A stretch of DNA of 23,497 bases from a virus, in IMG/VR virus record IMGVR_UViG_3300009593_000126, positions 1 to 23,497 of that record; one strand, 5' to 3'. Below the pieces are notes generated by a model that worked only from the letters and a program-made list of their open reading frames with translations, was not told the origin of the DNA and searched no databases. The position numbers were made by a program, and so were the translations under genes. Every line of letters starts with the position of its first letter. The stretch's first letter is position 1. Positions 2 through 17,111 of this stretch are shown here, piece by piece.

Positions 2-985
2 ATGGGACCAGAAGATGATATGTTTCAAGACTTCACAATGCATCCAGAAGACATGCAATTTGTATGTAGAGAACTTCCTATATATGATGACTACATTGAT
101 ATTGTTGCATCGCAGATGATACAGAAATCAATACCAGGCAAATCTCTTAAATGGGTTGTCTATGAACTTAATACAAATAAGATTGTTGGTTTCATTAGAT
201 TTGGTTCACCGACAATTAATTCAAAACCTAGAAATGAATTTTTAGGTAAACCTTTAAACACATTAGATAAAGAAGTAATGAAAAGATTTAATGATTCATC
301 AATCATGGGTTTCAATATCATACCAACACAACCATTTGGTTTCAATTATCTAGGTGGTAAACTACTTGCAGGCATTTGTAATTCACATCTTGCAAGAGAA
401 ACATTAAACAAGAAATATAATACAGAGTTCTGTATGTTTGAAACAACATCATTATATGGTTCAAGTAAATCAACATCAATGTATGATGGCATGAAACCAT
501 ATTTAAGATTTACAGGTTTAACTGATTCAGATTTTGTTCCTTCAATCAATGATGATAAGTATGCATTTTTAAAAGATTGGTTTGAAAATAAGAACAATGG
601 TAATCCTTTAGTTCATGAAGATGCTAGCAGTAGAAAATTAAAGACACAAGGTAAAATGATTTCTATAATAAGAAACTCATTACATAAACATCATAGTAAA
701 ATATTAAAACCATTTAGACAATGTTTTATAGATGCAAAGAATCTAACAGAACGCAAAAGACAATATCTAGGAACATATGGTTTTAAAAATGTTAAAGAGT
801 ATTTGAATTTAGAAACTGATACATTAGAAAAGAATATCAACTATGATAGATTTGAATATGATAATGTAATTACATGGTGGAAGAAACACGCAGGTAAAAG
901 ATTTGATAACTTAAAGAGAGATGGAAGACTTAGAACAGAATTAGAAGTTTGGTCTAAAAACTCAAACATAGACATAATAAGATAG
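2..985 (+). CDS. DruA/DUF4338-like protein, probably 5'-truncated
   Basis: At least 327 residues are visible. The ATG at position 2 is probably internal, because the paralogue at 10659-11939 is 426 aa and aligns from about its residue 130 onward. Shared blocks include 'PTQPxGFNYxGGKL' (about residues 108-121 here) and 'TTSLYGxSK'. The order of blocks (V(V/I)x(D/E)xxTxKxxGxI, an (I/L)PTQPxGxN stretch, then a TTSLYG block) follows the pattern of DUF4338, the family containing the Druantia protein DruA. The family match is by eye and distant. The biochemical role is unknown. A small ORF, a cytidylyltransferase and a glycosyltransferase-like gene follow closely, so the four may be co-transcribed. 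Being a gene is near certain; the family call is moderate. Confidence 0.8.
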   Translation: MGPEDDMFQDFTMHPEDMQFVCRELPIYDDYIDIVASQMIQKSIPGKSLKWVVYELNTNKIVGFIRFGSPTINSKPRNEFLGKPLNTLDKEVMKRFNDSSIMGFNIIPTQPFGFNYLGGKLLAGICNSHLARETLNKKYNTEFCMFETTSLYGSSKSTSMYDGMKPYLRFTGLTDSDFVPSINDDKYAFLKDWFENKNNGNPLVHEDASSRKLKTQGKMISIIRNSLHKHHSKILKPFRQCFIDAKNLTERKRQYLGTYGFKNVKEYLNLETDTLEKNINYDRFEYDNVITWWKKHAGKRFDNLKRDGRLRTELEVWSKNSNIDIIR

Positions 986-4182: not shown

Positions 4183-6690
4183 ATGGATTTTTATACAAAT
4201 GTATGTCGGTCTCGTGACAAAATTCTCGCAATAGGATACAAGAACGGAAAGAAACAAAAACTTTCTGTATCATATCGTCCCAATCACTTTATACCTTCAA
4301 AGAAAGGTTCATCGCCTTACAAGGCACTCGATGGCAGACCATTAGAAGTTGTTAATCTCAACTCAATGGGAGGCGCCAAAAAATTCAAAGACAAGTATCA
4401 GAACATAGATGGTTTTGAAGTTCATGGTTATGATAGATATGTTTATACTTACATATCAGATAAGTTTCCAGGCAAAGTAGAATTTGACCCTAGTCTAATT
4501 AAGATTGCTACACTTGATATAGAGTGTGAATCAGAGAATGGTTTTCCTGAACCATCACAGGCAATCGAAAAAGTAAACGCAATTTCAATTAAACCATTTG
4601 GTCAGAAGTGTGTTGTCTTTGGTATTGGTCCATGGGAAACAGAATCAGATGTAGTCTATTACGAATGTGATGACGAGAAAGAACTGTTGATGAACTTCAT
4701 GAAGTATTGGAGACAAGAATGGTTTGATATTATTACAGGTTGGAATGTCGATGCATTTGATATGACTTATCTTTGTAATCGTTTAGATAGATTGTTTGGC
4801 GAAGACACTCACAAAAAATTATCACCATGGGGTATGTCATCTCAGAGAGAGTTTCTACAAAATGGTTATCAGAAGACTCAGATATTTGATTTGAGTGGTG
4901 TCAATGTTGTTGACTATATGGAACTATACAAGAGGTCAACATTCACCAACCAAGAATCATATAAGTTAGATTACATTGCTCATTTTGAATTGGGTAAAAA
5001 GAAACTAGACTATTCAGAGTATGGTTCACTTCATACTTTATATAAGAACAACTATGCAAAGTATCTTGAATACAATGTTCGTGATGTTGTTCTAGTAGAA
5101 GAGTTAGAAGACAAGTTAGGTTTCTTAGACTTAACTCAGGCAATGGCGTATGATGCCAAGTGTAATTACATCGATACATTCGGTATGGTTAAGTATTGGG
5201 AAACAATCATATACAACTTCTTAAAAGAACAAGGTGTTCAGACACCACCACAAAAACGAAATGAGAATAAGACATCTCAAATTGCAGGTGCCTATGTTAA
5301 AGAACCAATCGTTGGTGGACATAATTGGGTGATGTCGTTTGACTTGAACTCACTTTATCCTCATTTGATTATGCAGTGGAACATTTCGCCAGAGAAAATG
5401 ATAAAGGGAAACAAACAAGATGTCACTGTAGAAACTATGTTAGATATGAAGAGTGACTTGTCTGTATGTAAGAAGATGAATACAACAGTTGCACCTAATG
5501 GTGTTATGTTCTCTAGAGATAAACAAGGATTCTTTCCTGAGATTATGGAAGTCATGTATGATGAGCGTAAGGCATGGAAGAAAAAGATGATTGACTATCA
5601 GAAAGAGAAAGAGAAAACAACTGATGCGAAACGAATTAAACAACTAGATACACTTATCAAGAGGGCATACAACAACCAACAAGTAAGAAAGATTGCATTG
5701 AACTCAGCATATGGTTCTATGGCAAATCAGTGGTTCGCCTTCTTTGACCCAAATCTTGCAGAGGCAATTACTTATTCTGGTCAGTTAGTTATTAAATGGT
5801 CAGAGAAGATAGTCAATGAATATTTAAACAAGATACTTAAAACAGATAACGAAGATTATGTTATCGCAATGGACACTGATTCAATTTATCTAACAATGGA
5901 TAAGTTTGTTAATACAGTTATGCCAGACGAAACAGATAAGAATAAGATTATTGATTTCTTATCAAAGGCAGAGTCTAAGATAGAAGATGTTTTAGATGAG
6001 GGGTTTGAAGAACTCGCCAATTATGTAAACGCATTTCAACAGAAGATGGAAATGGGTAGAGAAGTTATCGCAGATAGAGGTATTTGGACTGCAAAGAAAA
6101 GATACATTCTTAATGTGTATGATAACGAGGGTGTTAGATTAGAGAAACCTAAACTAAAACTCATGGGTATAGAAACTGCAAAATCATCTACGCCTCTATG
6201 GGTTAGAAGAAGATTGGAAGATGCAATTAAAGTTGTAATGACAGGAACAGAACAAGAGTTGTGGGAGTTCGTAGAGAAATCTAGAAAAGAGTTTAGAGAA
6301 TTACCGCCAGAAGATGTTGCGTTCCCTAGAGGGTGTAGAGGTTTAATTCAGTATGCAGACTCTACAAATATATACTCAAAAGGCACACCAATTCATGTCA
6401 GAGGTTCATTGTTATTTAATCATAGACTTAAAGAGATGAATCTTACAAAGAGATACGAACCTATTATGAACGGTGAGAAAATACATTTTACATATCTGAC
6501 GATGCCTAATCCTTTAAATGAAAATGTAATATCATTTACGAGTTCATTGCCTAGAGAATTTGATTTACATAGATTCGTAGATTATGATATGCAGTTCGAT
6601 AAATCATTTGTTGAACCATTGAAAAACATTGTCCAATTAATCAATTGGAATGTTGAACCTACTGCAAGTCTAGATACATTCTTTGCATAA
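4183..6690 (+). CDS. 43: family B DNA polymerase (T4 gp43-like)
   Basis: An 835-aa replicative DNA polymerase (T4 gp43 is about 898 aa). The 3'-5' exonuclease motifs are intact: Exo I 'LDIECE' (D112, E114), Exo II 'NVDAFD' (188-193, D193) and Exo III 'YNVRD' (297-301, D301). Polymerase motif A 'DLNSLYP' is at 387-393, motif B 'KIALNSAYG' at 503-511 and motif C 'DTDS' at 564-567. It should copy the phage genome together with a sliding clamp and the UvsX and gp41 proteins encoded downstream. The gene is intact, with no intein or frameshift. It begins a new transcription unit with its own sigma70-like promoter and no visible ribosome binding site. Confidence 0.97.
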   Translation: MDFYTNVCRSRDKILAIGYKNGKKQKLSVSYRPNHFIPSKKGSSPYKALDGRPLEVVNLNSMGGAKKFKDKYQNIDGFEVHGYDRYVYTYISDKFPGKVEFDPSLIKIATLDIECESENGFPEPSQAIEKVNAISIKPFGQKCVVFGIGPWETESDVVYYECDDEKELLMNFMKYWRQEWFDIITGWNVDAFDMTYLCNRLDRLFGEDTHKKLSPWGMSSQREFLQNGYQKTQIFDLSGVNVVDYMELYKRSTFTNQESYKLDYIAHFELGKKKLDYSEYGSLHTLYKNNYAKYLEYNVRDVVLVEELEDKLGFLDLTQAMAYDAKCNYIDTFGMVKYWETIIYNFLKEQGVQTPPQKRNENKTSQIAGAYVKEPIVGGHNWVMSFDLNSLYPHLIMQWNISPEKMIKGNKQDVTVETMLDMKSDLSVCKKMNTTVAPNGVMFSRDKQGFFPEIMEVMYDERKAWKKKMIDYQKEKEKTTDAKRIKQLDTLIKRAYNNQQVRKIALNSAYGSMANQWFAFFDPNLAEAITYSGQLVIKWSEKIVNEYLNKILKTDNEDYVIAMDTDSIYLTMDKFVNTVMPDETDKNKIIDFLSKAESKIEDVLDEGFEELANYVNAFQQKMEMGREVIADRGIWTAKKRYILNVYDNEGVRLEKPKLKLMGIETAKSSTPLWVRRRLEDAIKVVMTGTEQELWEFVEKSRKEFRELPPEDVAFPRGCRGLIQYADSTNIYSKGTPIHVRGSLLFNHRLKEMNLTKRYEPIMNGEKIHFTYLTMPNPLNENVISFTSSLPREFDLHRFVDYDMQFDKSFVEPLKNIVQLINWNVEPTASLDTFFA

Positions 6691-10327: not shown

Positions 10328-10659
10328 TGCAGAAAGTTTCATTTGATGATATTGGTGGAGAAGTAATTAAAGATACTTCTCAGTATCTTCTTAAAGATAA
10401 TAAATTTGGCAAGAACTTAATTTTAAGTAGCACATTTTTAAGAGCGAATCAGATGACCAATGGCCATACACATTCAGGACAAGAAGAAGTATATTTCTTT
10501 GTAAAGGGTCACGGTGAAATGGAAATAGATGGTGAGAGATTTAAAGTAGAGAAAGGTGATGTTGTTTGCATTAATGATGGTGAATTTCATAAAGTATTCA
10601 ATACAGGACATCTCGCCCTAGTTTTTTTATGTGTATTTGATGGAGGAAGAAACCACTAA
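10327..10659 (+). CDS. cupin-domain protein
   Basis: A 110-aa single-domain cupin. Motif 1 is 'GHTHSGQEEVYFFVKGHG', with metal ligands H47, H49 and E53 or E54. Motif 2 is 'GDVVCINDGEFHKVFNTG', with H88. These supply the usual three-His/one-Glu site, so a divalent metal is expected. Small cupins include isomerases, dioxygenases and sugar-binding proteins, and the sequence does not discriminate between them. It shares a TAATG junction with both neighbours and directly precedes the second DruA-like gene. A shared role is possible but unproven. Confidence 0.88.
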   Translation: MQKVSFDDIGGEVIKDTSQYLLKDNKFGKNLILSSTFLRANQMTNGHTHSGQEEVYFFVKGHGEMEIDGERFKVEKGDVVCINDGEFHKVFNTGHLALVFLCVFDGGRNH

Positions 10660-11939
10660 TGGAACCATTTGTTCAGAAACAATTTGATGAGTATCAGGCG
10701 AATAGAGTCGAGAAAGAAATATTGCCTAAAGAAGAACTCAGAGATTTGATAATCAAAGATTTATCATTTGTTTCTACAATGGGTGTGGCAGAATACACCT
10801 TATATCAGAAGTATCAAGAAATACATTTGAAATATCCATCACAAACTGTATCAACATTGTTTGGTGAAGAAACAAACTTTGTTAATGAAGACCATTTAAA
10901 ATTAATTACAGAAACAAAAAACAACATATGGTTTCCTAATTCGTATGAAGACTTTGAGAAATTAGAACCAGAATTAGTATATACAGATTCAGAGAAAGAT
11001 AGACAAGCCGCTGGTTCTCTTACAGAGAGATGGAATTGTTTAAGAACAATGACACACAGCCAGAAGAACTCATCTAACATAGGGCGTAATCTACATTACA
11101 TTGTTAGAGATAAAGTCACAGGTAAATATCTTGGTGTCATTTGTATTACAGGTGACTTCATTGACTTAACACCTAGAGATAATTACATTGGTTGGGATAG
11201 AGAATACAAAACAAACAGTGGTAAACTAAACAATAGTGCAATTGGTTCAAGTATCTTACCAACACAACCATTAGGGTTTAATTATACAGGTGGTAAACTA
11301 ATGGCATTGTTATGCACTGCCGATGTAATACAGAAACAATGGGAAGAAAACTATGGTGATAAGTTAGTTGGTATGACTACAACATCACTCTATGGTAAAT
11401 CTAAAACAGGTGGGTTATCACAATACGATAGACTCAAACATTGGAAGAAAATGGGCTATAGTCAAGGTTCATTATCATTTGAGATGACCAAAGACACTGA
11501 AAGAGCTATGCTTGATTACGCAGAACATCATTTCAACGAGAGATACTTTCTATTGTATGTTGCTAAAAGAGAAAGTGGTCAGACATTAAAGAGAGACCAT
11601 AGAAATCGTATGAGGCAATTTATGTATTCACAATTGAAGATACCTAAAGAGTTGCAGAAGAGTGACCATCAAAGAGGTATCTACTATTCCACATTCTATG
11701 AGAACTCACGAGAGTTTCTTAGAGGTGAGATAGAACAAGAACAGTTGATTAGAAACTCAAACGATGGTTCAGTAGAATCGTTGACTCAATTGTGGAAAGA
11801 AAAGTATGCTGCTAAGAGAATAAATAATCTCATGAACGCAGAAAGACAGAATTTAACTGAAACACTTTTCTACGATGACATAATAGGTATGTCATGGGAA
11901 GAGTGTAAAGCAAAATATTTAGGAGATGTAGGACGATGA
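10659..11939 (+). CDS. DruA/DUF4338-like protein (full-length paralogue)
   Basis: A 426-aa protein, the complete paralogue of the truncated gene at the window start. Residues from about 148 on read 'LHYIVRDKVTGKYLGVICITGD', then 'YIGWDREYK', 'SSILPTQPLGFNYTGGKL' and 'TTSLYGKSKTGGLSQYDRL'. This is the order of DUF4338/DruA features: a YLG strand, an IGWD segment, an (I/L)LP segment followed by an N/A-rich helix, then a Y-G/C segment followed by a W/G position. About 130 N-terminal residues are helical and without match. DruA is a component of Druantia anti-phage systems; its role inside a phage is not known to me. Start by TAATG coupling to the cupin gene. Confidence 0.82.
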   Translation: MEPFVQKQFDEYQANRVEKEILPKEELRDLIIKDLSFVSTMGVAEYTLYQKYQEIHLKYPSQTVSTLFGEETNFVNEDHLKLITETKNNIWFPNSYEDFEKLEPELVYTDSEKDRQAAGSLTERWNCLRTMTHSQKNSSNIGRNLHYIVRDKVTGKYLGVICITGDFIDLTPRDNYIGWDREYKTNSGKLNNSAIGSSILPTQPLGFNYTGGKLMALLCTADVIQKQWEENYGDKLVGMTTTSLYGKSKTGGLSQYDRLKHWKKMGYSQGSLSFEMTKDTERAMLDYAEHHFNERYFLLYVAKRESGQTLKRDHRNRMRQFMYSQLKIPKELQKSDHQRGIYYSTFYENSREFLRGEIEQEQLIRNSNDGSVESLTQLWKEKYAAKRINNLMNAERQNLTETLFYDDIIGMSWEECKAKYLGDVGR

Positions 11940-12169
11940 ATGTATTAGATATGATACCTGCCAAGAAAAGAGGAGTTTTAATTCCAGGAAGAAAGATTAG
12001 AGTTGGCAGAGATGAGTATAGAGAATTTACTCAGAAAGTTGAAGAACTTGCTGAGAAAGGTCATGAATTACCACACTTGGTAGAACATGAGAAAGATGCA
12101 GATATGTTTGTGATAGAACTTTTGGGTGATGTAGACCTAGAAGAACTAGACAAAATTGCAGAAGGTTAA
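11936..12169 (+). CDS. small hypothetical protein (77 aa)
   Basis: The ATG overlaps the preceding stop as ATGA. The protein starts MNVLDMIPAKKRGVLIPGRKI and continues into a charged helical region (EYREFTQKVEELAEKGHEL), ending with the acidic 'LLGDVDLEELDKIAEG'. It stops one base before the tRNA gene. No family is recognised. Confidence 0.7.
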   Translation: MNVLDMIPAKKRGVLIPGRKIRVGRDEYREFTQKVEELAEKGHELPHLVEHEKDADMFVIELLGDVDLEELDKIAEG

Positions 12170-12170
12170 T

Positions 12171-12246
12171 GGGGCTGTAGCTCAGTAGGGAGAGCGGGGC
12201 CTTTGCAAGGCTCAGGTCGTAGGTTCGATTCCTATCAGCTCCACCA
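12171..12246 (+). tRNA. tRNA-Ala (anticodon UGC), CCA encoded
   Basis: A complete cloverleaf. Acceptor 12171-12177 pairs with 12236-12242, including a G3:U70 wobble, the main alanine identity element. The D stem GCTC pairs with GAGC (12180-12183, 12192-12195). The anticodon stem GGGCC pairs with GGCTC around the loop TTTGCAA (12202-12208), anticodon TGC at 12204-12206. The T arm is GTAGG-TTCGATT-CCTAT (12219-12235). Discriminator A12243 is followed by an encoded CCA (12244-12246). It reads GCA and GCU-type alanine codons. The next gene starts only 12 nt after the CCA. Confidence 0.97.
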
Positions 12247-12258
12247 TTTTAGATAATT

Positions 12259-12747
12259 ATGGAATACGAGATAAAAATGATTGCACCAAGATACGCACAA
12301 GGTTGTTATGATGTGCAACATTCTGGTGGAGAGTTTCAAGAGTTGACTTCTGGCCTTTGGTCATTAGATACTTGGAAATGGATTTCTCACAATTGCAACG
12401 ATACTTTTATCATTACAGATGAAGATGATAGAGTTCTTGGTTATTGGTTGGGTGTTATACAGGTATGCAATATACCTGATGATAAGGAAAGACATGGTAA
12501 ACTTAGTTGTTGTGCAATAGATGTATGTGTTCACAAAGAAATGAGGTCAACAGGCATCATGAATGAAGTCATGAAAACAGTATGTGATTATCATGAATCT
12601 ATCTATACTTGGACACATGTAGATAATGTTATCGCACAAAACATCATGGAGAAATATGGTTTCATTCAACACTCCAGACGAAAAGACTGGTTCGCACCAG
12701 GCGAAGACTCTTATTATTACACTTTCGATAGAAAGAATTACGAATAA
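12259..12747 (+). CDS. GNAT-family N-acetyltransferase
   Basis: A 162-aa protein with the GNAT order of elements: a central strand 'DDRVLGYWLGV', then 'CAIDVCVHKEMRSTGIMNEVMKTV', the motif A region where the acetyl-CoA-binding R/Q-x-x-G-x-G/A loop is present as RSTGIM. 'NVIAQNIMEKYGF' follows, the motif B N-x-x-(A)-x-x-x-Y-x-x-x-GF element. The transferred acyl group and target (protein, nucleotide or small molecule) are unknown. There is no clear ribosome binding site. It starts 12 nt after the tRNA-Ala 3' end, so tRNA processing would leave a very short leader. Confidence 0.85.
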   Translation: MEYEIKMIAPRYAQGCYDVQHSGGEFQELTSGLWSLDTWKWISHNCNDTFIITDEDDRVLGYWLGVIQVCNIPDDKERHGKLSCCAIDVCVHKEMRSTGIMNEVMKTVCDYHESIYTWTHVDNVIAQNIMEKYGFIQHSRRKDWFAPGEDSYYYTFDRKNYE

Positions 12748-12751
12748 AGAC

Positions 12752-12781
12752 TTGACAATGGGCCCTACTTTTTAGTAGGAT
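12752..12781 (+). promoter_or_regulatory. strong sigma70-like promoter, copy 1
   Basis: A perfect TTGACA (12752-12757), an 18-bp spacer and TAGGAT (12776-12781). This 30-bp block is nearly the same as the one at 13782-13811: TTGACAATG, seven variable bases, then (C/T)TTTTTAGTAGGAT. The spacer contains the inverted repeat CCTACT-TTTT-AGTAGG (12764-12779), whose right arm covers part of the -10. The ATG of the 31-aa peptide falls 6 nt after the -10. Confidence 0.7.
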
Positions 12782-12787
12782 GGATGC

Positions 12788-12883
12788 ATGTTGAGAAAGT
12801 TATTAAAAGTTATATTTTGGGTATCGTTATTCTGTATCGTATATCTAGGATTAATGTTTTTCGCATATAATAGTATTTCATAA
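12788..12883 (+). CDS. 31-aa single-span membrane peptide
   Basis: An ATG at 12788 sits at the predicted transcription start of the strong promoter and opens a frame ending TAA at 12881-12883. The product reads MLRKLLKVIFWVSLFCIVYL then GLMFFAYNSIS: a short basic N-terminus followed by one hydrophobic helix of about 22 residues. This suits a small inner-membrane protein with its N-terminus in the cytoplasm. It has no Shine-Dalgarno, so translation would be leaderless. Small early membrane peptides of phages often target host envelope functions, but nothing specific is shown here. Confidence 0.55.
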   Translation: MLRKLLKVIFWVSLFCIVYLGLMFFAYNSIS

Positions 12884-12894
12884 GGAGACCAAGA

Positions 12895-13308
12895 ATGGAA
12901 AAGGCACTAATAGTAAACACACAATATCTAGAGAACTATGATTTAGATGGTGGTAACGCTTGGAAGTTTAAAGGTGGCAAAGAGTATGTCATTTCATTTG
13001 GTGTCACCAAAGAGATTTATGAAGAAGATGCATATGGTAAGGGTGAACATTCTTACTATGAATGTCCTGAGGTTAGTGAAGCAACTATACTTGCATTAAT
13101 CAATCAATTAGGTAATGCATCTAGTGGTGGTTACCAAGAGTTTGTAAAGTCTTGGGAAGTGACAGATTTACCTTCTGCACTTACAGAACAAGAACTTTCT
13201 TGGTATCATGATAAAGAGGCCTACGAGTGTTTCAAGGCAGAAAGAATGTCTTGGAAAGAATTAGAACAACAATTAAAGGATACAAGAAAAGAAGAAAGTT
13301 ATGCCTAG
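12895..13308 (+). CDS. conserved phage hypothetical protein (137 aa)
   Basis: A 137-aa protein with a good ribosome binding site ('aaggag', 12882-12887). It begins MEKALIVNTQYLENYDLDGG, followed by 'AWKFKGGKEYVISFGV', and has an acidic helical C-terminus. The N-terminal pattern of a short strand, then 'QYLENY' and a 'WK.KGG..Y' strand is, from memory, found in small proteins of marine T4-like phages with no assigned function. It is probably transcribed from the strong promoter at 12752. It overlaps the phosphatase start by 8 nt. Confidence 0.8.
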   Translation: MEKALIVNTQYLENYDLDGGNAWKFKGGKEYVISFGVTKEIYEEDAYGKGEHSYYECPEVSEATILALINQLGNASSGGYQEFVKSWEVTDLPSALTEQELSWYHDKEAYECFKAERMSWKELEQQLKDTRKEESYA

Positions 13309-13747
13309 ATTAACAGTAGTTTTTGATGTAGATGGAACAATCGCTGATGTCGAACATAGAAGACATCTTGTAAATGGTGAGAACAAAGATTGGAAAAATT
13401 TTAGATTAGCAACTGAAAACGATACACCTGTTCAATGGGTTTGCGATATTGCAAAAAGATACATTGCACAAGGTGATGAAGTTGCTTTCTTTTCTGCAAG
13501 AAACGAATCAGAAAGAGAGATTACAGAAAGACAAATTTCAGAATGGATTGGTGATGGTCATAAAGGTGTCTTTTTAAGACCTAATGATTCATACGAACCA
13601 GATGAGGTTTTTAAATCAGAACTCGCAGATAAATTTGAAGAAATGGGTGGTAAAATTGACCTAGTATTTGACGATAGAAACAAAGTCGTTGATATGTGGA
13701 GACAAAGAGGAACCACTGTCGTTCAAGTTGCAGACGGCGATTTTTAA
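13301..13747 (+). CDS. HAD-superfamily phosphatase, PNKP 3'-phosphatase type
   Basis: A 148-aa HAD phosphatase. Motif I is 'FDVDGTIAD' (nucleophile D9, D11), motif II is probably 'FFSARNE' and motif IV is 'LVFDDRNKVVDMWRQRG' (D124, D125). The end, 'VQVADGDF', closely resembles the C-terminal phosphatase domain of T4 polynucleotide kinase (PseT), in which 'YDDRxxVVxMWR' and 'QVAxGDF' occur. The N-terminal kinase domain of T4 Pnkp is absent, so this is a stand-alone domain. It could remove 3'-phosphates from RNA or DNA ends, or act on nucleotides. T4 Pnkp repairs tRNAs cut by host anticodon nucleases. Confidence 0.87.
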   Translation: MPRLTVVFDVDGTIADVEHRRHLVNGENKDWKNFRLATENDTPVQWVCDIAKRYIAQGDEVAFFSARNESEREITERQISEWIGDGHKGVFLRPNDSYEPDEVFKSELADKFEEMGGKIDLVFDDRNKVVDMWRQRGTTVVQVADGDF

Positions 13748-13808
13748 CTACTAAAAAAGTGCAATTATTTTCGCCAAAAGGTTGACAATGACAGCACTTT
13801 TTTAGTAG
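13748..13808 (+). repeat. 15-bp perfect inverted repeat around a promoter
   Basis: The arms CTACTAAAAAAGTGC (13748-13762) and GCACTTTTTTAGTAG (13794-13808) are exact reverse complements separated by 31 bp. The loop contains the TTGACA -35 element (13782-13787), and the right arm runs into the -10. The left arm begins directly after the stop codon of the phosphatase gene. RNA from upstream would fold this as a stem, and DNA-binding proteins could use it as an operator. It lacks a U-tract after the stem, so it is not a standard intrinsic terminator. Confidence 0.85.
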
Positions 13809-13811
13809 GAT
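13782..13811 (+). promoter_or_regulatory. strong sigma70-like promoter, copy 2, of the large ncRNA
   Basis: A perfect TTGACA (13782-13787), an 18-bp spacer and TAGGAT (13806-13811), nearly identical to copy 1 at 12752-12781. Transcription would start near 13818 and meet no gene before the terminator at 14941-14967. The most economical reading is that it drives a non-coding transcript. Confidence 0.72.
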
Positions 13812-13979
13812 ATCCATAGTGAGATAACACTAATAGAAAAAAACAAGAAGTGCTTGAAAGTTCGACCTTCTAAAAAATAGAGAAACTTTACTTGACAAGA
13901 ATTTAGTTCCTCATGAACACCGAAAGGGTTTCGAAGTCATTAGAAAACAGTCACGAAGTTCAAAAGTCGCTGAGAGGTC

Positions 13980-13996
13980 GCAGGTTCGAATCCTGC
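13980..13996 (+). other. tRNA T-arm-like element inside the ncRNA
   Basis: GCAGG-TTCGAAT-CCTGC is a perfect five-pair T arm with the standard seven-base loop. It is preceded by 'aggtc', like a tRNA variable loop, and followed by 'cataacca', like an acceptor 3' strand. No matching 5' acceptor, D arm or anticodon arm is found upstream, so it is not a tRNA gene. It could be a tRNA remnant or a tRNA mimic within the larger RNA. Confidence 0.6.
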
Positions 13997-14516
13997 CATA
14001 ACCAGGCGTTGTGTGGAGAAGTGGTCCGAATCTTTCTGAACTGCTATTGGTTGATTTAGTCAACTGAACATAAAGCATAAGACTTATCGTAAATCGTAGA
14101 GTTTGTGGGTAAGAACACAACAGTGAGATTAGACCTAGTTCTTTTCAATATAACTGATTAACTACTTCACTATTCGAGCGAGAGCGGTCATAGAATCTTT
14201 TTTACTAGACTTTAATGTAAAAGTTAAAGGCGACATCCTAGGATGGTCCGGCGAAAATCGTTAGTATCAAAAAATGAAAGTTTATATTTTGAGTCGTTAG
14301 TGTAAGGGTAATCAAGAATGGAGAAGCTTGAAGTTAACCAGACTCCCTGAGACCTTTTAAACGAAATATAATACGAGTAAGTAAGAGATGACAAAAGAAC
14401 TATCATTGACGACTCACGGCGAGGGCATTATGTATTCCTGTCGGTATAAGGGTTAAATTTAGAGTTGTGGACATGATAGAGTGGTGATATACGAATACAA
14501 GAAGGAAGCGTGTTTA

Positions 14517-14563
14517 CTGATTATTGAGATACAAGAGAATAGACTCAAGCGTTCAATAATCAG
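14517..14563 (+). repeat. 11-bp perfect inverted repeat within the ncRNA
   Basis: CTGATTATTGA (14517-14527) is the exact reverse complement of TCAATAATCAG (14553-14563), with 25 nt between. It should form one of the main long helices of the RNA. Confidence 0.8.
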
Positions 14564-14940
14564 ATAGTCGGAGACCTATACAGAATCCGAGCGTAGGGAT
14601 AGTTCCTGAGTTAGAGTATGATGATAAGTGTATGGATGTGAGATGCAAAACAATGGTTGCTTGCAGTGTTAGATTCTCGGAGAATAAGAGAGTATAGTCG
14701 TCTAACAGTTAGTAGGGAGATTTAATATCTCGCTCAGGATGGAAACGAAACAGTGGTTCGAAACACCGAGTAGTTTCTACAGAACTTCACCTTTTTAAGT
14801 TGATTTGGAACAGAAGGTTAGTCGCCTTTGCAACTAGAGTTGCTACAAAAACAAATGACGATTGTGAGTCAGGAGACCAACAACTAGAATGATGATTCGA
14901 CACTGCTGAAGAGTATTGGATGCAGACATCATTTCGAATA

Positions 14941-14967
14941 ACCCACCTCTTTGAGGTGGGTTTTTTT
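14941..14967 (+). terminator. intrinsic (Rho-independent) terminator
   Basis: ACCCACCTC (14941-14949), loop TTT and GAGGTGGGT (14953-14961) make a nine-pair GC-rich stem followed by a run of seven T (14961-14967). It ends the ncRNA and separates the early-promoted region from the late genes. The stem is symmetrical, but the T-run lies only on the + strand. Confidence 0.95.
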
Positions 14968-15009
14968 GTATGGAAAACCACCTATACAAAATGGCTGCTT
15001 TTCTGTTAT

Positions 15010-15017
15010 AATAAATA
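15010..15017 (+). promoter_or_regulatory. T4-type late promoter-like box
   Basis: AATAAATA, one mismatch from TATAAATA, lies 5 nt before the ATG of the lipoprotein gene (15023) and just after the terminator. No Shine-Dalgarno is present, so the transcript would start at about the ATG. Confidence 0.5.
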
Positions 15018-15022
15018 GTAAT

Positions 15023-15256
15023 ATGAAAAATTTAACAACAATTCTTGTATCAATATGGTTTTTGACATCATGTTCTACATCAGTAATACTACCAGGCCTA
15101 TGTTATGATGATAGAGATGGAACATTTATGTGTCCACAACCAGATGTTCCTATAAAGATAGACCCAATACCTGAGGTTCCATTAGAGATACAAGAAATTC
15201 TTGATTGTGAGGAGGAACATCCACTCAACGATAAAGAATGTGTGATGATAGCATGA
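15023..15256 (+). CDS. small lipoprotein, possible outer spanin
   Basis: A 77-aa protein. The start is placed at ATG 15023, because the upstream in-frame ATG (14951) lies within the terminator hairpin. Residues 1-17 form a lipoprotein signal: MKNLTTILVSIWFLTSC, with lipobox LTSC and C17 as the lipidation site. The mature part of about 60 residues is rich in proline (PIKIDPIPEVPLEI) with further cysteines. Proline-rich small lipoproteins serve as outer-membrane spanins (Rz1 type) in lysis of Gram-negative hosts. Other options are superinfection-blocking or virion lipoproteins. No inner spanin candidate is obvious beside it. Overlaps the next ATG as ATGA. Confidence 0.78.
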   Translation: MKNLTTILVSIWFLTSCSTSVILPGLCYDDRDGTFMCPQPDVPIKIDPIPEVPLEIQEILDCEEEHPLNDKECVMIA

Positions 15257-15429
15257 CTAAGAACTTGAAACCAGATGAAGTAATTTCTTTAATCACAAAG
15301 AAAGTTCAAATCAAAAAAGATTTGAGAGAACTTAGAAAGAATAAAGAAGACCGTAAAGCTGATATTCTTCAGCTAAAATTAGAGCAATTAGAAGATAAAT
15401 TGCACTCCCGACCGCTAGCAAAAAACTAA
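15253..15429 (+). CDS. small charged helical protein (58 aa)
   Basis: The start is put at ATG 15253, which overlaps the lipoprotein stop (ATGA); an in-frame upstream ATG at 15238 is less likely. The product is almost entirely charged helix, with 'SLITKKVQIKKDLRELRKNK' followed by 'ILQLKLEQLEDKL', a heptad-like pattern suggesting a coiled coil. No transmembrane segment, so it does not fit an inner spanin. Function unknown. Confidence 0.65.
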   Translation: MTKNLKPDEVISLITKKVQIKKDLRELRKNKEDRKADILQLKLEQLEDKLHSRPLAKN

Positions 15430-15432
15430 ATA
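15425..15432 (+). promoter_or_regulatory. T4-type late promoter-like box
   Basis: ACTAAATA, two mismatches from TATAAATA, overlaps the stop of the preceding gene. The gene at 15458 lies about 20 nt after the expected start site and has an 'aggag' ribosome binding site, so this message would have a normal leader. Confidence 0.4.
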
Positions 15433-15457
15433 GTCCATAGAAACACAGGAGATTTCT

Positions 15458-15841
15458 ATGGGACATTATGCTGACGCAAAAACTAGATTAACAACTTTTA
15501 AAGAAGGTCACCAACGCAGTAGCCAGTTATTTGATACTAGTGCTTCATCTATGAACATTAAGTTTAGAGATGGAGATGGTAATCCAGACGATACTCTTTT
15601 ATATGATTACACAGGCACAGGTGGTATAAAGGGTGGTCTAACTGCATGGCGAGCTGCTAATGGTTCAGTTAGTTCTGGCACAATGTATGATATGTGGAAT
15701 AGGGGTATAAACACTATGTCTGATTCAGACTACGCCGCTGAGAAGGCGAAACACGACCAGACAGTTGCAGATACAGAAGCTGATATTGCATGGGTGCAAA
15801 AGATTATAGATAACGGTGAGGACCCTACCAACATTTCTTAA
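15458..15841 (+). CDS. hypothetical late protein (127 aa)
   Basis: A 127-aa protein with a strong ribosome binding site ('caggag', 15446-15451). It begins MGHYADAKTRLTTFKEGHQR, has a Gly/Asp/Thr-rich middle (RDGDGNPDDTLLYDYTGTGG) and ends with a helix containing 'AAEKAKHDQTVADTEADIAW'. The late promoter-like box upstream suggests a virion or assembly protein. No family recognised. Confidence 0.75.
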   Translation: MGHYADAKTRLTTFKEGHQRSSQLFDTSASSMNIKFRDGDGNPDDTLLYDYTGTGGIKGGLTAWRAANGSVSSGTMYDMWNRGINTMSDSDYAAEKAKHDQTVADTEADIAWVQKIIDNGEDPTNIS

Positions 15842-15853
15842 ACTATAAAAAGT

Positions 15854-15861
15854 CATAAATA
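15854..15861 (+). promoter_or_regulatory. T4-type late promoter-like box
   Basis: CATAAATA, one mismatch from TATAAATA, lies in the 61-nt gap before the gene at 15903. The expected start near 15867 leaves a leader of about 36 nt with only weak ribosome-binding potential. Confidence 0.5.
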
Positions 15862-15902
15862 GTAGTATTACACGAACATTAAGATAAAAGTGATACTACA
15901 AA

Positions 15903-17111
15903 ATGGCAGCAGTTAAAAACTTACATTTAGAACATCTAGAAGACGAAATCATCAACAATGGTATTGATGGTGGCCGAGCTGCAATTAATTTTCTTAGGTC
16001 TTTGAGAGATATGATGAAAGGTACCTCAAAGAAAAAAGTTAATATGACAGTTAAATGGGATGGTGCACCTGCAATATGGGCAGGACAACATCCAGAAACA
16101 GGTCAATTCTTCGTTGCAAAGAAATCTCTCTTCACAAAAGCACAACTATATTACACCTCTGAACAAGCAATCAAAGATGCATCAGAACTATCTGGTGACT
16201 TAGAAAAGAAATTCATAGAGTCATTTAAGTATCTATCTAAACTTTCCTGGAATAAAATCTTACAAGGTGACTTGATGTTCACCGATGCAGATAAGAAAAT
16301 GGAAGAGATAGATGGTGTAAACTATGTCACATTTCAACCAAACACAATATTATATGCCGCTGATATAGAATCAGATTTAGGTTCTGCCATCGCCAATGCA
16401 AAATATGGTATAGTATTTCACACCACATATGAGGGTGCAACTATAGAAGACCTTGGTGCTTCATTTGGTGCAGACATATCTACATTGGGTCATAGTAAAG
16501 ATATATGGATTGATGATGCAACATACAAAAGTGTTGCAGGTAATTCTACTCTAACTGCAAAAGATACAGTTGCACTAACAAAGGCATTATCAGAAACAGG
16601 TAAATCATTTCATAAGATTAAGAAACCTGCATTAACAAAGTTCATGAAAGTTCAACAGGCAATACAAACTAAAGGTGCAGGTGGAACATATAAGACATAC
16701 ATGAATACACAAATAAGAAAGGGTAAATTTAATTTATCTTACAAGGCATATCTAAGTCATTTTGATAAGTATTGGGAAGACAAAGTAGTTAGTAAAGTCA
16801 AAATGGAAAAGACAAAAGAAACAAAAAGACAAATCGGTAAACAACTTAGAAGAGAGATAGTTGGATTAAAGATTTTAATAACAGCATTAACATCGTTTCA
16901 GACAAACATGGTTGGTGCAAAGAGTTTAATAATAAAAGGTCTAAACACTATCAAAGATATTGGGACATTTAAAAAGACTTCTAGTGGATTTGAAACAGTA
17001 AATCCAGAAGGATATGTTGCAATAGATGACAGTGGTAAGGCAGTTAAGTTAGTAGATAGAATGGAATTTTCATTGAACAATTTCACTGTCGCTAAGAATT
17101 GGGATAAGTAA
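15903..17111 (+). CDS. nucleotidyltransferase/ligase-like protein with KWDG motif
   Basis: A 402-aa late protein. I see a sequence of motifs like the covalent nucleotidyltransferase (DNA/RNA ligase) superfamily: motif I 'TVKWDGAPAIW' (K51-x-D53-G54), where the lysine would carry AMP; 'ILQGDLMF', like motif III; 'YGIVFHTTYEG', like motif IIIa; 'EGYVAID' (369-375), like motif IV; and 'KAVKLVDR' (K382), like motif V. The resemblance is by eye. The protein resembles a family of uncharacterised T4-like marine phage proteins of about 400 aa. If active it could be a DNA or RNA ligase; if not, a structural relic. Followed by a gene with a capsid-targeting-like leader. Confidence 0.72.
   Translation: MAAVKNLHLEHLEDEIINNGIDGGRAAINFLRSLRDMMKGTSKKKVNMTVKWDGAPAIWAGQHPETGQFFVAKKSLFTKAQLYYTSEQAIKDASELSGDLEKKFIESFKYLSKLSWNKILQGDLMFTDADKKMEEIDGVNYVTFQPNTILYAADIESDLGSAIANAKYGIVFHTTYEGATIEDLGASFGADISTLGHSKDIWIDDATYKSVAGNSTLTAKDTVALTKALSETGKSFHKIKKPALTKFMKVQQAIQTKGAGGTYKTYMNTQIRKGKFNLSYKAYLSHFDKYWEDKVVSKVKMEKTKETKRQIGKQLRREIVGLKILITALTSFQTNMVGAKSLIIKGLNTIKDIGTFKKTSSGFETVNPEGYVAIDDSGKAVKLVDRMEFSLNNFTVAKNWDK

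Follow-up and report, generated by a model that had tools for sequence, protein, structure and literature searches.

Between a near-consensus promoter and an intrinsic terminator, the marine T4-like phage genome IMGVR_UViG_3300009593_000126 carries what is, judging from its sequence and that of its homologues, almost certainly a genuine structured non-coding RNA gene. It comprises a promoter, a 948-nt conserved structured core, a portable pseudoknotted 3′ module, and a terminator. The window referred to below is the whole stretch of DNA analysed (23,497 nucleotides). A sequence-only reading had proposed that this T4-like phage encodes a structured non-coding RNA of very large size, and homologues, fold, and covariation strongly support that proposal. 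The RNA is a new class of large phage RNA, resembling GOLLD and ROOL and belonging to neither by the tests run, in which the family-search controls were weak, and its detachable 3′ domain is a new feature among large ornate phage RNAs. The best overall explanation, to which we give an even chance, is an independent RNA gene whose core would self-associate into a scaffold or cage and whose 3′ module would be an exchangeable adaptor.

The RNA gene and its surroundings

The carrier genome encodes the DNA polymerase, UvsX, and DnaB-like helicase of a T4-like phage and shares about 75% DNA identity with the marine phage Melnitz, in short stretches only. Two phrog_19197 proteins (window 2–985 and 10659–11939) lie on either side of the replication genes. 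The one at 10659–11939 contains the DruA domain of the Druantia defence protein family (PF14236, E 5.7e-22). The landmarks of the RNA gene are as follows.

13301–13747, plus strand: Pnkp gene upstream of the RNA, 148 aa, HAD_PNKP (polynucleotide kinase 3′-phosphatase) domain
13748–13808, plus strand: 25-nt inverted repeat, 84% complementary, directly past the Pnkp stop codon and overlapping the promoter
13782–13811, plus strand: sigma-70-type promoter TTGACA-N18-TAGGAT, 10/12 consensus
13818–13831, plus strand: 5′ hairpin AGUGAGAUAACACU at the predicted transcript start
13845–14792, plus strand: conserved structured core RNA, 948 nt, 30 contigs
14813–14932, plus strand: 3′ module, 120 nt, a separate covarying pseudoknotted domain
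14940–14967, plus strand: intrinsic terminator, hairpin 14940–14962 followed by a T-run

The Pnkp protein was assigned by Pfam PF25109 (E 1.7e-23) and phrog_415. Both arms of the inverted repeat are altered together in L004 (L-numbers are labels of viral contigs from the IMG/VR collection), and the repeat is possibly a terminator or an upstream promoter element. The promoter had been described as near-consensus. Wherever it is readable in the homologues, the 18-bp spacer is kept with a similar sequence, and most homologues have a perfect 12/12 promoter, TTGACA-N18-TATAAT, as read directly from their sequences, the −35 or −10 box being weaker in some. A second promoter, TTGACAATG...CTTTTTAGTAGGAT (12752–12781), is near-identical to that of the RNA gene, and the two probably represent a phage early-promoter class. 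In place of the 5′ hairpin, the homologues have GUAAU...AUUAC hairpins. The terminator, called strong in the earlier reading, is the strongest within 12000–16500, and the homologues end likewise in G+C hairpins with T-runs. The claim that 13818–14967 holds no plausible gene also stood, since even the longest stop-to-stop frames of the core are short, most of them antisense; a conserved reading frame was sought across the core homologues and none was found, the frames shifting between homologues. The G+C content does exceed that of the neighbours, but modestly (about 0.36–0.41 compared with about 0.33–0.36 alongside).

Homologues and conservation

Relatives of the upstream Pnkp protein, fetched from IMG/VR, served as the starting set. 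Two of these contigs contained the whole RNA, L003 (99.9%) and L004 (93%), and many others had just its last 110–120 nt, immediately past the Pnkp stop codon. Conserved-anchor pattern scans were then run over 2.9 million viral contigs. The final two scans, with independent anchors, found 27 and 29 core-bearing contigs, of which 26 were common, giving a union of 30; this overlap indicates that the set is near saturation in that collection for these anchors. Pattern matches in L157, L159, L160, L162, and L164–L166 were discarded as chance after their sequences had been read. Core identity to the window ranged from 94% down to 64%, the most distant lineage being L158, and the core was single-copy in all seven core-bearing contigs searched. 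Compared with L004, the core is 93.8% identical, versus 69–92% for third codon positions in the genes next to it. A blastn search of 50,697 phage records with the RNA as query returned only tRNA T-arm and terminator matches and no core, and one exact anchor pattern gave zero matches in 85,462 GTDB genomes.

Fold and covariation of the core

The single-sequence fold of the first 1000 nt was no more stable than those of shuffled sequences (z +0.7). Single-sequence minimum free energy was hence rejected as evidence of structure, and the many inverted repeats of the earlier reading, which are indeed present, prove nothing on their own. The 11-bp long-range repeat of that reading did not hold: the only perfect 11-bp pair (14517–14527/14553–14563) has its arms 25 nt apart and is a local hairpin.

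RNAalifold on 22 core sequences gave a consensus fold of 253 pairs in 56 helices, which includes the following elements.

13955–13961 with 14782–14788, plus strand: long-range closing helix GAAGUUC/GAACUUC, 7 bp, conserved
13980–13996, plus strand: T-arm-like hairpin GCAGG-UUCGAAU-CCUGC, loop nearly invariant
13997–14013, plus strand: hairpin holding the most strongly covarying column pair, 14001/14009 (AU, GC, CG)
14014–14025 with 14161–14172, plus strand: long helix of the RNAalifold consensus
14517–14563, plus strand: 12-bp hairpin stem with compensatory changes
14751–14768, plus strand: candidate symmetric kissing-loop hairpin, 8-nt loop with a 6-nt palindrome, UUCGAA or UUGCAA

Nine diverse sequences gave a consensus energy of −240 kcal/mol. 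Column-shuffled controls lay at −173 (sd 7.1), which puts the core at z −9.5. Its reverse strand came only to −176 (z −5.0), and the Pnkp gene, which served as a coding control of similar identity, to z −2.6. The closing helix had a base-pair probability of 1.00 in RNAalifold, with 147/147 cells paired. The predicted core stems contained 833 GU versus 66 AC cells, a count in which the prediction itself is biased toward GU. A tree-based covariation test of our own, modelled on R-scape, detected five significant structure pairs compared with 0–1 in slid versions, and a test of all column pairs returned a single significant pair, 14001/14009, which is Watson-Crick and lies within the structure. 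The small number of individually significant pairs is explained by the alignment, which holds only about 1.1 substitutions per column. As a guard against circular reasoning, each clade's predicted helices were scored in the other clade. Fourteen compensatory pairs were found in one direction, clearly above the 1–6 of the slid controls, and eight in the other, a modest margin over 0–6. The independent folds of the two clades had 52 pairs in common, and none with slid copies. Helices are thus retained by compensatory changes above the level of the controls, as expected of a structured non-coding RNA gene.

The T-arm-like region has 26 nt identical to the 3′ halves of phage tRNAs. Its interpretation as a tRNA, a permuted tmRNA, or a tRNA remnant was rejected, because the covarying hairpin occupies the acceptor position.

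A portable 3′ module

The 3′ module, whose separate nature the sequence-only reading had missed, folds apart from the core and contains the following elements.

14813–14817/14825–14829, plus strand: module hairpin 1
14819–14823 (loop of hairpin 1) with 14857–14861, plus strand: module pseudoknot, with GC-to-AU and UA-to-CG changes
Module hairpin 2, plus strand
14904–14915, plus strand: hairpin tip with an invariant GAAG loop, on a closing stem

Across 31 aligned sequences, with the pseudoknot included, 88.5% of cells pair compared with 71.5% after shuffling, and none of 500 shuffles equalled this value. The module occurs once per genome among those searched, in three settings: fused to the core, past Pnkp or deoxyribonucleotidase genes, and past a RusA-like resolvase gene. 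In the last setting (L121), the stand-alone module has its own promoter, TTGACA-N18-TATACT. In phages without the core, stand-alone modules directly follow stop codons, and the core was sought in three large module-bearing contigs (130, 124, and 79 kb) and not detected. Core 3′ ends vary in turn, with at least four kinds among the homologues. The cores of L142 and L130 are followed by a related module having the same tip, AACACUGCU....AGGUAUUGGAUGG, those of L138, L143, and L158 by a short hairpin and a terminator, and that of L161 by a terminator alone. The idea that all family members share the same 3′ module was therefore rejected. Modules without a core, together with cores bearing other 3′ ends, indicate that core and module are separable and freely combined.

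Stand-alone modules recurrently lie behind HAD-fold phosphatase genes (Pnkp or deoxyribonucleotidase) at differing sites in L032–L081 and L085–L122. The related module of L142 and L130, a second kind that shares the hairpin tip, was seen past the core in L142, at 2300–2400 in L130, at 11820–12000 (reverse complement) in L087, and in L088; it also stands alone behind a deoxyribonucleotidase gene, and in L087, L088, and L142 it precedes an extra domain, GGUCUAA...UAGACCCAUUCAAAACUUU. In L099, a hairpin-rich intergenic stretch (5820–5902) lies immediately upstream of a stand-alone 3′ module. A match to the module in the jumbo phage FLC6 was weak (E 0.056 in nhmmer) and was dropped.

Genomic sites of the core

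The core occupies at least four genomic sites among the homologues.

After Pnkp: window
Beside head-closure and DNA-end-protector genes: L109, L138 group
Beside the major capsid gene: L134, L161
Between a peroxiredoxin-like protein and a deoxyribonucleotidase gene: L152

The L152 neighbour reads as a peroxiredoxin from its sequence, PHROGs assigning it no function. The promoter travels with the RNA across the differing sites, and in L109, L134, L138, and L161 genes on the opposite strand flank the core. Its presence at several sites, sometimes amid opposite-strand genes, shows that the core is an independent unit, and the opposite-strand flanks exclude a leader or read-through explanation there. 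In L134 (4479–4606) and L161 (2986–3113), the large RNA is immediately preceded by a glutamine riboswitch (RF01739) on the opposite, minus strand.

Comparison with known RNA families

The sequence-only reading had suggested a member or a distant or new class of RNAs such as GOLLD and ROOL, with OLE and HEARO also named for comparison. Membership was not upheld. A relaxed Rfam scan of 13700–15050 (E up to 5) gave weak sub-threshold matches only and none to the GOLLD, ROOL, OLE, HEARO, intron, or tmRNA families, and Rfam found no GOLLD, ROOL, OLE, or HEARO in the diverged homologues. The window had no match to the GOLLD model (RF02032) at E up to 10, in a search whose 14-genome control likewise gave no above-cut-off hit. 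Nor did it match the ROOL model (RF03087) at E up to 10; the control of this search also found nothing, so the ROOL negative rests on cmscan. Of the options offered, the new class is thus favoured, and a search of the literature returned no description of the present RNA. The expected closeness to tRNAs is not a general feature: the tRNA-Ala of the window (12171–12243 by Rfam, 12171–12246 by ARAGORN), its sole Rfam match, is about 1.6 kb from the RNA, and no tRNA was found in 23 other core loci apart from an unlikely intron-bearing prediction in L158.

The RNA resembles GOLLD (RF02032) in being a giant structured phage RNA, one hairpin loop of which shows an apparent palindromic GC/CG switch like that of L21a in GOLLD (PMC12286853). 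It differs in having no sequence or covariance-model match and no tie to tRNA islands. In addition, GOLLD has a universally conserved 3′ region and a less conserved 5′ region (PMC12286853), whereas the present RNA has a core conserved along its full length and an exchangeable 3′ end. With ROOL (RF03087) it shares the character of a large ornate phage RNA with pseudoknots; it is longer (about 1.15 kb), its module also occurs separately in other phages, and no match was found. Melnitz, a related marine T4-like phage, carries a two-piece tmRNA (PMC9004378). Both are structured RNAs of related marine T4-like phages with a T-arm-like hairpin, and the present RNA differs in having no tmRNA-model or ARAGORN match, conserved acceptor, or tag frame. 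It is also about three times as long. ARAGORN predicted no tmRNA in any homologue, and the Rfam tmRNA and intron families had no match there.

Possible self-association and alternative explanations

Three lineages have GUUCGAAA as the loop of the 14751–14768 hairpin, and 18 sequences have GUUGCAAA; the stems covary too. Within the loop (14756–14763), UUGCAA (n = 18) or UUCGAA (n = 3) forms a palindrome in every sequence covering it. The GC/CG switch corresponds to about three parsimony changes with no intermediates; if phages exchanged whole hairpin alleles, the palindrome could have spread in that way and the switches may number fewer than three. One of 21 loops has a 6-nt palindrome in every sequence, and by our own estimate about one such loop could arise by chance. 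In a cryo-EM study of GOLLD, ROOL, and OLE, an adjacent-nucleotide GC/CG switch in L21a of GOLLD (bridge B8) was taken as evidence of a symmetric intermolecular contact (PMC12286853). The loop described here shows the signature used for that kissing loop, which makes homo-oligomer assembly of the core plausible but unproven. From this one loop we infer, with moderate confidence, that the RNA may self-associate; formation of a homo-oligomeric cage is only hinted at.

Judging from its promoter, the gene would be transcribed by the host sigma-70 polymerase, probably early in infection, and the product would work as a folded RNA and not as an mRNA. Copies of the core may associate through the palindromic loop as one symmetric contact, and the associated cores could form a scaffold or cage of RNA like those that GOLLD and ROOL build. 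We judge this the most likely mechanism, at somewhat under an even chance. For the 3′ module, which can be exchanged, we propose the role of an adaptor or cap; in other phages it may act alone as a small RNA or an mRNA 3′ end. Only tentatively can these steps be combined into a class of giant RNAs that self-assemble via symmetric kissing loops, with a 3′ domain serving as a mobile adaptor that marine phages also use alone.

The RNA might instead be a monomer whose binding partner is the ribosome or a protein of the host or the phage, and serve as a decoy, a regulator, or an anti-defence factor, the palindrome being incidental and no oligomer being formed; we regard this as possible, no more firmly than that. 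The core has the T-arm-like hairpin with its nearly invariant T-loop, and protein- and ribosome-binding RNAs often have such T-loops. A weak hit to Y RNA-like RNA stayed below threshold, and raiA and similar large RNAs are monomers (PMC12286853). However, the palindrome is maintained across GC/CG double changes, and the RNA is not accompanied by any constant partner protein gene, its neighbours varying by site. A GOLLD or ROOL diverged beyond recognition by the Rfam models would account for the size, the phage location, the ornate structure, and the palindromic loop like L21a. It is very unlikely, given the absence of matches in the region (E up to 5), the window (E up to 10), and the diverged homologues, and given a variable 3′ end where GOLLD has a universal one.

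Same-strand genes on both sides in the window, and stand-alone modules directly after stop codons, would suit a long untranslated region or a cis-regulatory leader of a neighbouring mRNA. The core amid opposite-strand genes in four contigs and the conserved promoter and terminator at several sites make this highly improbable. We consider least probable an RNA that encodes a protein or has a dual function, a decayed or tmRNA-like gene, or an intron. The T-arm with a CCA-like end (13980–14004) does recall a tRNA or a permuted tmRNA, and Melnitz has its two-piece tmRNA, but the CCA is not conserved, no conserved frame was found, the ARAGORN and Rfam tmRNA and intron searches were negative, and conservation is too high for a decayed gene.

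Significance

To our knowledge, only a handful of protein-less RNAs this large and complex occur in bacteria and their viruses, and we know of no function for GOLLD or ROOL. A third phage class, unrelated in sequence and residing in compact marine T4-like genomes, would show that such RNAs have originated repeatedly and would independently test self-assembly as a common principle of giant phage RNAs. The portable 3′ module, of about 120 nt and present also in core-less phages, offers a small handle on function and is an example of domain shuffling between RNAs. If the self-assembling class is real, complex RNAs would evolve by domain swapping, as proteins do.
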